Origin: Pseudomonadota bacterium
Lineage (GTDB): Bacteria; Desulfobacterota; Desulfobulbia; Desulfobulbales; JAGXFP01
Assembly: GCA_018814305.1 (NCBI GenBank)
Contig: JAHJAA010000082.1
Location: 1-64,000 of the forward strand
Direction of reading: 5' to 3'
DNA length: 64,000 nucleotides
In this document: positions 22,470 to 51,219 of the stretch, piece by piece
Numbering within the stretch: the first letter of the stretch is position 1
Layout of the letters: each line of letters starts with the position of its first letter
Translations under genes and position numbers: made by a program
Notes under the pieces: model-generated
Seen by the model: the letters and a program-made list of their open reading frames with translations, nothing else
Databases searched by the model: none
Told to the model about the DNA's origin: nothing

Positions 22470-23207
22470 TCAGGATTCCACCAGGTGATCCGGGAAGGTG
22501 GTTGATGCCTCGGGCAACCAGGCCGCCAGCTCTCCCAAGGCAGTAGAGGTGGTTAGATATGGCTCCCGGTTTGCCATTGTCCGTTGTTGGATTTCTGTGA
22601 GTAATTTTTGAAGCGACCATGATCCGACTCGGTTTCCAGAAACGTTTGGATAATCAGAGACATACCCCCACATATGCTGCAGGGCATTTTGTAACCCCCC
22701 GGCGGTCGGTTGCTGCCGTATGGTTCCGGAGAGAAGATTTGCTAGATCGGAAAAGTCCTGGTGGGGCTTCATGAGAGATACCTTTCGGCCCAGGTTTTTA
22801 TAAAGAGGTACGTCCCGAGCCAGCACCGAATACTTGTGTTGGCTCCAGAGTTGTTGAGCGTCTTTCGGGAAGGGGATTCTCCCCGGTTCCCGTTCTCGGT
22901 GTTTTTCGGCAAGGATGGCAAATTGCCGACCCGGTTCATCGATAAATGAATCCGGCCAGATCCCGGGGCGTGATTGCAATAGTACTGGGGTCCGGTCGGT
23001 GTATCCCCGCAGCGCCATTTCTGCGGCCAGCAACCGGTGGCGTTGTTGTAGTGCCCAGCCGTAACCAAGCCACCGGAGGGTCTCGGGGTGACGGGAGTAC
23101 CCCTTTTTGCCATTGACCAAGATGGAGACGATGCCATGGAGTTCCCGATGCTCTCCCAGGAGGCTCTGCCGGTTGAGGTATCCCGGATTGATGTCCCAGA
23201 TCCTCAT
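22470..23207 (-). CDS. Pyrimidine dimer DNA glycosylase-like domain fused to DUF1722
   Basis: 245 aa. Residues 1-130 match the pyrimidine-dimer excision family (start [33 protein letters not shown]), the bacterial relatives of T4 endonuclease V. Residues about 130-240 match DUF1722 (YbgA-type): [33 protein letters not shown]. The first part is expected to cut at UV photodimers; the role of DUF1722 is not established, though it often accompanies photolyase-type repair genes. The start overlaps the msrAB stop by 4 bases, so it is coupled to an oxidative-repair operon. Confidence 0.82.
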
Positions 23208-24313
23208 TTTTGCGAGGAAGATTCCGGGGATTTTGTATCGGTAAAAAGTGGCAGGAACTGACCATACCCCTCAGTCTCCAGATCGCTTACCGGGATAAAC
23301 CTTAAGGCCGCGGAGTTCATGCAGTAGCGCTTGCTGGTGGGAGGCGGGCCATCATCAAAGACATGGCCAAGATGGCTGTCCCCCTGTTTGCTTCGAATTT
23401 CTGTCCGTACCGACAGGAACAGGATACGGTCTTTTTTAGTGATGATATTTTCCGGGGCCAGCGGTTTGGTAAAGCTCGGCCAACCGGTGCCGGACTTGTA
23501 TTTATCCAGAGAGCTGAACAATGGCTCGCCTGAGACGAGGTCCACATAGATCCCGGGTTTATTGTTATCCCAGTACTCATTGTTAAAGGCCGGCTCTGTT
23601 CCTTCTTCCTGGGTTACCTTGTACTGCAAGGTGGTCAGCCTTTGTTTGAGTTCCTTTTTGCTCCAGGGTTTACGTTCCTTCCCCCAGATTTTATCAAGGT
23701 ACTTGTCGCGGCCGGAACCGTTCCGGTAATATTTGTATCTCAGTGGGTTTTTCTTGTAGTAGTCCTGATGGTATTCTTCTGCCGAATAGAAGGGCTGGGC
23801 CGCTAAAATCGGGGTTATGATGGGTTCCGGGAACACGTGGCGGGCCTCAAGCGCCGCCTTTGATCGTTCCGCCTGTTGTTGTTGGGCCTCGTTGGCGAAG
23901 AATATTGCCGAGATATACGGATGACCCCGGTCCACGAACTGTCCTCCCGCATCGGTGGGGTTAATCTGCATCCAGAAGATTTCAAGAAGTTTTTCGTAGG
24001 AAACCCGGGTCGGATCATAGGTGATTTTGACAACTTCGATATGACCACCTTCACCATAATTACGGTACGTAGGGTTGGTGGTCTGGCCGGCAGAATAGCC
24101 AGAAATCACCGAGCGGACCCCAGGCAACTCCTCAAAGGGCTTTTCCATACACCAGAAACAGCCACCGGCAAAGATTGCTGTTTCGAACTCAGGGGCCGCC
24201 TCGGTTTTCATTCCGGGCTCATCGCCGGCAACGGTGGGCGCGGTCGGGAGAATGGCGAATCCTGATACAATAATGAGCAGAAACACTAGGTTCCTGACGG
24301 TGATTTTTGTCAT
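23204..24313 (-). CDS. msrAB: Secreted peptide methionine sulfoxide reductase MsrA-MsrB fusion
   Basis: 369 aa: signal peptide (about 1-30), MsrA domain with catalytic GCFWCME (Cys52), then an MsrB domain with SGTGWPSF and the catalytic cysteine in RYCMNSAAL (about residue 335). The two halves reduce the S and R forms of methionine sulfoxide in proteins, here in the periplasm. Order A then B is the common one. GGAGG precedes the ATG. The gene is 27 bases after a putative MsrA-like selenoprotein gene and overlaps the pyrimidine-dimer glycosylase gene, making a three-gene repair operon. Confidence 0.95.
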
Positions 24314-24340: not shown

Positions 24341-24682
24341 TTAAAGTCTGTTGGCACCTTCCGTTCCAGATCGTAGCGGCGGGGGTGTTCCCAGGGTTTT
24401 GATATAGGTTCCTTCCTGCTGCAGTCGGCCAATTATCTGTTCCACCGTTATTCGCTGGGGATCAAACACGACCCGGTTAACCTCATGCATTCTTTGCCAG
24501 CCGCTTTTAACCGTCAGCACGCCAGGCCGCCCGTCCAGGGCGGCTTTGCCGACATCGTATCAGCGGACGGCAAAGGTCGCCTGGCTGGTGTCTGCCGATT
24601 GACCGGCATGGATCGTTTCGAATTGCTGAAAAAGAATCAGATTCAAAAGTATACCGCAGAAGATCAATACTTTTAGGATCAT
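24341..24682 (-). CDS. Putative selenoprotein: short MsrA-like protein with in-frame UGA (Sec41)
   Basis: ATG at 24682, with GAGGTG 5 bases upstream, opens a 113-codon frame with one internal TGA (24562-24560) and a TAA at 24343-24341. The product has a hydrophobic signal or anchor (1-18), then FAVRUYDVGKAALDGRPGV. This aligns without gaps to [19 protein letters not shown] of the adjacent MsrA, with U exactly at the catalytic Cys. The rest (HEVNRVVFDPQRITVEQII) matches the MsrA segment [20 protein letters not shown]. The frame stays protein-like after the TGA, no start codon would serve the second half alone, and a bacterial SECIS hairpin follows. The FWxxE substrate residues of MsrA are missing, so it may be a redox partner or a distant MsrA relative. 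Confidence 0.82.
24526..24544 (-). promoter_or_regulatory. Bacterial SECIS element (candidate)
   Basis: On the minus strand GCCGCCC-TGGAC-GGGCGGC forms a perfect 7-bp stem with a 5-base loop. The loop begins 22 bases after the UGA, and G is its second base. Known rules for bacterial SECIS elements ask for a loop 16-37 bases after UGA, a 4-16 bp stem and a G in the first two loop bases; all are met. It should bind SelB to insert selenocysteine. Confidence 0.8.
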
Positions 24683-24845: not shown

Positions 24846-25922
24846 TCAGCCCGGGAGCAGGAACCAGACACGGGCTACGTCGGGAGAGCTGTCCGCGCCG
24901 ACCATGCCGCCGTGGGCTTCGATCAGTTCCTTGACAATGGCCAGGCCGATTCCGGCGCCCCCGGCCAACCGTGATCGGGAGCGGTCGGCTCGATAAAAAC
25001 GTTCGAAGATGTACGGCAGGTCCTGTTCGGCAATACCATTGCCGCTGTTGGTGACAATCACCTTGATGCCCTGGGCGGTACGCTGACTGCTGATTTTGAT
25101 ATGGCCGTCGATAGGGGTGTATTGGCAGGCGTTGGCCAAAAGGTTGCGGATGGCCAGCAACAGCTTGTCTCGATCTGCCATCACCCGATTCGCATCAGCA
25201 GGGAAATCGGTCCCCACCAGGATTTTTTTCTCTTGCAGGGTCAGGCCATACAGGGGGAGCAATTGCCCGACCAGTTCGGAGACCTGGAGCTCTTCGCGGT
25301 TGAGGTAGGCCCGGGCGGCATCGGCCTGGGCCAACTGGCGAAGATCATCGACCAGATGGACCAGGCGCAAGGTCTCCTGCTGCAGCATCTGAAAGGTTTC
25401 CCCGGAGGGGGGAATCACCCCATCGTTTAAACCTTCAAGATATCCCCGGAGATTGGTCAGAGGGGTCCGGAGTTCATGGGCTACATCCGCCACCATGGTC
25501 TTACGGAGCTTTTCCAGCTTTTCGAGATTGTCGGCCATCCGGTTGAAGGCCAGCCCCAGTCGGCCGATCTCGTCGGCGGAGATGATATCCACCCGGGCCG
25601 AAAAGGTCCTGTCTGCCATGGTTCCGGCAATGGCGGTCATCTGGGACAGGGGCCGCAACACCCGGCGGATCAGAAGAAAGCTTAAAATAAAGGCCAGGGC
25701 CAGGGCGGCAAGACTTGACCAGATCAGGTAACGGTGGATGGATGAGAGGAACATCCGGTGGATATCGGTGGGCGATACATCATACTCGTGCATCAGGGCC
25801 ATAAAATAGTCGGCGGCCAACTGGTCGATGGCCAGCCAGATCACCAGGATAACAACCCCGATCACCGGAACGATATTGATCAACAGGAGTTTCCAGAGCA
25901 GGCGGCCTTTCACGTGGATCAA
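24846..25922 (-). CDS. Sensor histidine kinase (HAMP, HisKA, HATPase)
   Basis: A 358-aa membrane kinase: two membrane helices (about 10-30 and 65-88) enclose a short periplasmic loop of about 35 residues, then HAMP (88-140), HisKA with the phospho-acceptor in VADVAHELRTPLTN (near 150) and an HATPase domain with N, G1 and G2 motifs (NLLANACQYTP, GNGIAEQDLP, AGGAGIGLAIVK). It resembles BaeS/ResE-type kinases. The start overlaps the response regulator stop by 4 bases. The small sensor loop gives no hint of the signal; proximity to msr genes suggests envelope or oxidative stress. Confidence 0.92.
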   Translation of the reverse strand: MIHVKGRLLWKLLLINIVPVIGVVILVIWLAIDQLAADYFMALMHEYDVSPTDIHRMFLSSIHRYLIWSSLAALALAFILSFLLIRRVLRPLSQMTAIAGTMADRTFSARVDIISADEIGRLGLAFNRMADNLEKLEKLRKTMVADVAHELRTPLTNLRGYLEGLNDGVIPPSGETFQMLQQETLRLVHLVDDLRQLAQADAARAYLNREELQVSELVGQLLPLYGLTLQEKKILVGTDFPADANRVMADRDKLLLAIRNLLANACQYTPIDGHIKISSQRTAQGIKVIVTNSGNGIAEQDLPYIFERFYRADRSRSRLAGGAGIGLAIVKELIEAHGGMVGADSSPDVARVWFLLPG

Positions 25923-26608
25923 CCCTCATCGGTGAATTTGTAGCCAAAGCCCCTGACGGTCAGGATATAACGGGGAGTGGTAAGATTCTCTTCGATTTTC
26001 TGCCGGAGTTTACCGATGTGAACGTCGATTACCCGGTCGATCACGGATTCGCCATGTTGATAGAATTTGTCCAACAGTTCATCCCGAGTGAAGACCTTCC
26101 CCGGCACGGTCATCAGGGCCTGGAGCAGTTTATATTCCGAGGTGGTCAGCTGGATTGTTTGTTCTCCGAGGGTCACTTTGTGCTTTTCTGGATCCAAGGT
26201 TAACTCGCCAGACTTGAGAAGCTTGGCCCCAGGGTGGTCTTCGGAAAGGGTCCGCCTCAAAATCGCCTTGACCCGTTCCACCAGTTCCCGGGGACTGAAT
26301 GGTTTGACCACATAGTCATCGGCGCCGAGGGAAAGCCCCATGATCCGGTCAATTTCCTCCTGGCGAGCGGTCAGCATCAGGATCGGTACATTTGATTCAG
26401 CCCGTAACCTTCGGCAGACATCCCAGCCATCGATTTCCGGGAGCATCAGGTCAAGAATGACAAACATCGGTCGGTGGCGACGGGCCATGTCCAAGGCCTG
26501 TTTGCCGTCGGGGGCAATGAGGGTGGTAAAGCCCTCGCGCTCGAGATAGGTCCGGACCAGGAGCGCGGTATTGGGATCGTCTTCAACGATTAGTATAGGT
26601 GCGGACAT
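25919..26608 (-). CDS. OmpR-family response regulator
   Basis: 229 aa: receiver domain (1-120) with the acidic pocket and phospho-Asp in VILDLMLPEIDG, Thr in LMLTAR and Lys in VVKPFSP; then a winged-helix trans_reg_C DNA-binding domain (130-228) ending in VRGFGYKF. It is the partner of the kinase that overlaps its 3' end. The upstream gene (TPR protein) is only 18 bases away in the same direction, so the pair may lie in a longer unit or have a promoter inside that gene. Confidence 0.95.
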   Translation of the reverse strand: MSAPILIVEDDPNTALLVRTYLEREGFTTLIAPDGKQALDMARRHRPMFVILDLMLPEIDGWDVCRRLRAESNVPILMLTARQEEIDRIMGLSLGADDYVVKPFSPRELVERVKAILRRTLSEDHPGAKLLKSGELTLDPEKHKVTLGEQTIQLTTSEYKLLQALMTVPGKVFTRDELLDKFYQHGESVIDRVIDVHIGKLRQKIEENLTTPRYILTVRGFGYKFTDEG

Positions 26609-51017: not shown

Positions 51018-51219
51018 GACCGGGTAGGTCAGGATCCTTGCGGCTCCATTCCCCCCTCAGAATCGTACGTGACAGTTTCCCGTCATACGGCTCAAGCATC
51101 TTAAAGGCCCCCCTTGTTGGGCGGCCCGACTGTTTGACCTCTTATGCTGCGTCAACCATGGCCCTGAATTCCCGGGCGGTGTAGGTTGGCAGCAGCTTGC
51201 ATTTCTTAATGTCTTGCGT
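51018..51219 (-). mobile_element. Group II intron 3' remnant with domain V
   Basis: On the minus strand a 34-base domain V occupies 51093-51060: GAGCCGTATGACGG-GAAA-CTGTCACGTACGATTC pattern with the catalytic AGC triad and GAAA loop. A domain VI-like stretch follows (TGAGGGGGGAATGG...) to about 51018. Upstream, to about 51219, the minus-strand frame reads ...RSNSRAAQQGG...RMTGNCHVRF, a relic often seen at intron ends, but no reverse transcriptase remains. It is a truncated intron facing the other remnant at 50337. Confidence 0.6.

Follow-up and report, generated by a model that had tools for sequence, protein, structure and literature searches.

A short gene on the minus strand of the window (by which we mean the whole 64,000-nt stretch of DNA that was analysed) runs from an ATG at 24682-24680 to a TAA stop at 24343-24341 and contains a single in-frame UGA, followed by 72 sense codons (Table 1). 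The original prediction described a candidate selenoprotein gene with a good ribosome site, a signal-like N-terminus and a UGA in frame at codon 41, all of which we find in this frame. The first frame of the plus strand over 24341-24682 was rejected because it is not open. Relatives of the protein likewise begin with a hydrophobic segment, with a lipobox-like Cys in a few, and export is predicted. The mature domain includes the sequence TFAVRUYDVGKAALDGRPGVLTVKSGWQRMHEVNRVVFDPQRITVEQIIGRLQQEGTYIKTL, where U is the predicted selenocysteine (Sec). Because the key codon resembles a stop, gene callers miss or truncate this protein. Beyond msrAB, a gene at 22470-23207 on the same strand overlaps the msrAB stop by 4 bases and encodes Pyr_excise (pyrimidine dimer DNA glycosylase) and DUF1722 in one protein.

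Table 1. Features of the selenoprotein locus and its neighbours in the window
Feature	Position	Strand	Remarks
Predicted selenoprotein gene, mini-MsrA-like, putatively exported	24341..24682	-	113 codons plus TAA, UGA read as Sec
UGA codon 41, predicted selenocysteine	24562-24560	-	TGA in 70/72 distinct loci
bSECIS-like hairpin GCCGCCC-UGGAC-GGGCGGC	24526..24544	-	7-bp stem; loop 22 nt after UGA
Ribosome-binding site GAGGTG	24693-24688	-	5 nt 5' of ATG; from sequence
Signal-peptide-like N-terminus, residues 1 to ~26	24605..24682	-	hydrophobic; from sequence
Mature domain	24344..24604	-	beta-alpha-beta-beta-alpha-beta, AlphaFold2
msrAB, MsrA-MsrB fusion with signal-like N-terminus	23204..24313	-	same strand, 27 bases 3' of the selenoprotein gene
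Sensor histidine kinase (HAMP-HisKA-HATPase, BaeS-like)	24846..25922	-	upstream; kept beside many relatives
OmpR-type response regulator, partner of the kinase	25919..26608	-	upstream

Searches among relatives, then in the class and phylum, and then in a genome collection yielded 72 distinct loci of a family that we call mini-MsrA selenoproteins, most of them in Thermodesulfobacteriota and some in Nitrospirota, SAR324 and Myxococcales. Homologues lacking Cys or Sec at the UGA would have spoken against the original prediction; the codon is UGA at 70 loci, Cys (TGC) at one (G097) and Ser at one (G270). The genome collection was searched with a degenerate DNA pattern that contains TGA itself. Loci found in this way were left out of the TGA proportion because the pattern requires TGA; among loci from protein and profile searches free of that requirement, TGA is found in 28 of 30. 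Loss of the Sec machinery as the source of the Cys form was ruled out, since selA is present in G097. The 72-codon continuation had been described as protein-like, and the closest pairs give dN/dS values of 0.07-0.29 downstream of the UGA; judged from these sequences, the stretch is under purifying selection. Two further gene copies, L098 (G034) and L099 (G122), both beside msrAB and from one genus, are decayed. The family tree, built on 62 columns, is poorly resolved.

The hairpin just downstream of the UGA was also part of the original prediction. Its 7-bp stem and UGGAC loop are real, but it is the loop, and not the stem, that starts 22 nt after the UGA, and an outer stem lengthens the structure to about 24555-24519. 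The 45-nt fold at this site has an energy of -22.2 kcal/mol (z -2.6), equalled by 1 of 200 shuffles. In bacterial SECIS elements about 16-37 nt separate the UGA from the loop, which starts with a G. Family members with TGA agree with this rule in having a stem-loop just downstream whose loop begins 22-25 nt past the UGA and carries a conserved GG. The four innermost pairs, of G-C type, form in 66-69 of 69 distinct sequences, and 480 of 552 stem cells are paired, against a mean of 431 and a highest value of 456 in column shuffles that ignore kinship. The three outer stem pairs covary, and pairing is lost when the partner is slid. Codon choice within the hairpin is nearly invariant (Leu CTG 68/69, Ala GCC 62/69, Gly GGG 64/67) at third positions that were left free in the DNA search pattern; GGG is used at nearby Gly codons in only 6/69 and 8/69. 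Against synonymous reshuffling the mean z of the hairpin is -1.8, while that of the rest of the gene is about -0.2. SelB would decode the UGA as Sec, aided by this hairpin.

A genome without selA, selB, selC or selD would have told against Sec decoding; all four are present here, with two selB-like genes that pass the selB cut-off and a tRNA-Sec with anticodon TCA. Among genomes with family members, selA was found in 56 of 60, and in 22/22 of the well-assembled ones. The occurrence of Sec or Cys in relatives, the Sec genes and the non-random UGA together support the reading of 24682..24341 as a selenoprotein gene. This genome also has two selD genes, of which one carries TGA in frame; coordinates noted for the selD and selB-like genes are G000:C18:28023-28952, G000:C10:58557-60455 and G000:C19:2750-3856.

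No Pfam or NCBIfam model reached its cut-off with the window protein; it scores 13.9-15.1 bits with PF01625 (MsrA), below the gathering score of 23.7. Profile-profile comparison bears out the predicted MsrA likeness with Sec at the catalytic Cys: hhalign gives MsrA a probability of 94.7, or 96.5 under other settings, where the match spans 59 columns including the Sec. Sec falls over catalytic Cys51 and an invariant Glu (57/57) over catalytic Glu94, the general acid of MsrA (PMC6210582). The family shares with MsrA (PF01625, TIGR00401, including Sec-MsrA) a Sec/Cys nucleophile at the end of beta 1, the spacing from the nucleophile to PGVxxVxSG[YW], the Glu, a [YF]DP motif and a ferredoxin-like core. 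It differs in having UYD for GCFW, in lacking the NPTY loop of about 15 residues that bears Tyr82, and in lacking the C-terminal half with its substrate-site residues Asp129 and Tyr134 and the resolving Cys. A gapless alignment with MsrA, as originally proposed, therefore holds up to SGW/SGY and breaks down beyond, where the 15-residue loop is absent. The claim that the FWxxE residues are missing was partly right: neither F nor W of GCFW is kept, but the equivalent of Glu94 is invariant. Ordinary MetO reduction is doubtful because Trp53, Tyr82, Asp129 and Tyr134 are absent. The mature domain has a single Sec and no Cys, hence no resolving Cys, in 58/59 loci.

For all 57 members scanned the best NCBIfam match is to NF041383 (VPGUxxT thioredoxin-like (seleno)protein type 2, also OS_HP5), in its second domain, with a best E-value of 6.8e-12, and hhalign gives this domain 97.0%. 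It is MsrA-like (ACFWTGE...GW...REVTxVTYH), but it contains Cys, keeps CFW and follows a thioredoxin-like VPGU/C domain in a fusion. The window protein matches model positions 140-204 only, at 41 bits against a cut-off of 275 bits, and has no thioredoxin-like domain in front. NF041383 proteins, seen at L055, L056, L058, L170 and L173, combine a thioredoxin-like domain with an MsrA-like half domain, an architecture not reflected in the name of that family. The possibility that mini-MsrA stands in for a missing MsrA lost ground, since 25 of the 28 member genomes tested carry MsrA; none was found in G272, G068 and G653. Several MsrA-family matches have an in-frame TGA (G606:C238:1537-1947 and others), one of them two.

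Neighbourhoods were counted at the 52 loci whose flanking sequence reaches 1.5 kb or more in each direction. At 30 of these an msrA or msrB gene in the same orientation lies no more than 1.5 kb away; if 4 Mb of genome holds two to four msr genes, chance would be expected to place one beside well under one locus. At 5 more the neighbour is a sulfite-oxidase-family molybdoenzyme gene, and 17/52 have neither. The msr arrangement varies by lineage. The gene may be 5' of msrAB (the window and its order), 3' of msrAB, 3' of msrB-msrA or beside msrB alone, and in G606 the family domain is fused to the MsrB C-terminus. That the two partners occur together in such varied orders suggests a shared function rather than descent of a single cluster, and both the context and the fusion favour the partnership with MsrAB that had been suggested. 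For the molybdoenzyme genes we prefer the name sulfite-oxidase-family (SorA/SoxC/MsrP) to 'MsrP-like' because no NCBIfam cut-off was reached. In several lineages a short gene of this family (about 216 aa) lies 5' of the selenoprotein gene, at L101, L102, L105, L113, L122, L143, L157 and L169. Upstream of the L126 member, the histidine kinase and selenoprotein genes are separated by a gene for a secreted protein that matches Spondin_N below threshold.

Our preferred reading, to which we give a probability of roughly 60%, is that the gene encodes an exported half-size MsrA-like selenoprotein that uses its single Sec catalytically in periplasmic methionine-sulfoxide repair, together with MsrA/MsrB or a sulfite-oxidase-family enzyme. 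Its sole redox residue would be the Sec at the place of MsrA Cys51, with the invariant Glu at the place of Glu94. In the periplasm the selenolate would attack an oxidised substrate while the Glu donates a proton. The substrate would most likely be a sulfoxide or a related product of oxidants that full MsrAB handles poorly. The resulting selenenic acid may then be reduced by a thiol of another protein, an outside thiol being proposed because the domain has no resolving Cys. Besides the MsrA/MsrB or sulfite-oxidase-family partner, the gene often has beside it what would be a dedicated two-component system. Counting against this reading are the missing MsrA substrate residues, the full MsrA encoded elsewhere in most member genomes, the equally HMA-like fold and sequence hits, and the 17 of 52 loci with neither kind of neighbour. 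More tentatively, and with odds somewhat short of even, this minimal single-Sec relative of MsrA may carry out a repair or detoxification reaction of its own in the periplasm of anaerobes, dependent on selenium and requiring no more than a selenolate, a Glu and a thiol from outside; its partners would be two unrelated kinds of redox enzyme, MsrAB and the sulfite-oxidase-family molybdoenzyme.

We rank first among the alternatives, as an unlikely one, that the protein has no substrate of its own and acts as a redox relay, a reductant or regenerating partner that passes electrons to MsrA/MsrB through a selenenylsulfide between its Sec and the Msr catalytic Cys. The several msr adjacency arrangements and the direct fusion to the MsrB C-terminus would fit such a role, as would the fusion of the nearest related domain to a thioredoxin-like VPGC/VPGU domain. 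There is also a parallel in PilB of Neisseria, where an N-terminal thioredoxin-fold domain is joined to MsrA-MsrB (PMC6210582). PilB resembles the present case as an exported multi-part Met-sulfoxide repair system, but it has neither selenocysteine nor a mini-MsrA domain. A relay normally needs two redox groups, however, whereas the family has its one Sec and no Cys (58/59 loci), and the sulfite-oxidase-family molybdoenzyme that adjoins it in other lineages is not expected to accept electrons from a selenol.

The neighbourhoods also bear on a role as periplasmic oxidant sensor, with oxidised Sec signalling to the adjacent histidine kinase to induce msrAB. Two-component genes lie within 4 kb at 29 of the 52 covered loci, including some without msr (L168, L160, L133, L126 and L082). 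Yet the kinases belong to an ordinary BaeS/WalK-like class, some members with msr neighbours (L091, L092 and L094) have no kinase beside them, and we know of no precedent for a selenoprotein sensor of this kind. We place this second among the alternatives and regard it as improbable.

The third alternative, slightly less probable again, is a metal-binding selenoprotein of HMA/MerP type with the Sec as metal ligand. AlphaFold2 gives the mature domain a beta-alpha-beta-beta-alpha-beta fold (mean pLDDT 87.8, pTM 0.74), and HMA chains lead its structural matches on both E-value and Z (MerP 1osd: Z 10.7, rmsd 1.7, 66 residues aligned). The lowest rmsd values in the Foldseek list, 1.3-1.4, are those of E. 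coli and poplar MsrA. The domain does have the HMA fold, but because this fold is common to HMA and MsrA it does not decide the matter by itself. In sequence there are weak matches to the NF041115 UxxU model and to CopZ/MerP models (MerP has E 0.0017 when PDB sequences are searched), and MsrA models are matched at about the same strength. The UxxU metal-binding (seleno)protein NF041115, MerP and CopZ share with the family the fold and a position for Sec at the site of the second CxxC Cys. The family nevertheless stays below the 95-bit cut-off and has no CxxC or UxxU pair, its one Sec being accompanied by no second ligand and, in 58/59 loci, by no Cys at all; it has instead the invariant Glu and stands next to Msr genes rather than metal genes. 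The hhalign probability for HMA is 15% under the settings that give MsrA 94.7%, and 88.5% under those that give 96.5%, in the latter case over 41 columns without the Sec as against 59 columns with it. We favour MsrA over HMA on the catalytic residues, the bridging NF041383-type domain and the gene context. Going by the topology of this fold, the Sec would share one end of the sheet with the Glu that opens beta 3 and a conserved Thr that opens beta 4.

That the UGA is a true stop and the remainder a decaying pseudogene or chance frame, as the original prediction had itself considered, agrees with the fact that a gene caller would stop at codon 41 and with the visible decay of the G034 and G122 relatives, but is scarcely credible given the conserved TGA, the Cys codon TGC at the same place in G097, the purifying selection (dN/dS as above) and family-wide conservation 3' of the UGA, the constrained hairpin and the full Sec machinery.

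A mini-MsrA selenoprotein family appears to be new as well as widespread. A 2026 review tabulates 119 prokaryotic selenoprotein families, among them full MsrA and OS_HP5/NF041383, and none of the 119 matches it (PMC13188914); nor does it occur in the accessible part of a 2022 selenoprotein list (PMC9312934). Members are found in Olavius-associated genomes (L123, L126 and L151), and the family may have been sighted earlier without a label, for example in Olavius symbiont data. The bacterial selenoproteome gains a well-supported family that gene callers truncate. If our preferred catalytic reading is right, selenium would be tied directly to envelope methionine-sulfoxide repair in largely anaerobic bacteria, and the minimal active site, a Sec and a Glu with no resolving Cys, would offer a clean test of how little the sulfoxide or related chemistry of MsrA needs.

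An Rfam scan of the window gave nothing at 24341-24682. Its only match in the window is to a group II intron (RF00029, 60.9 bits) at 51019-51095 on the minus strand.
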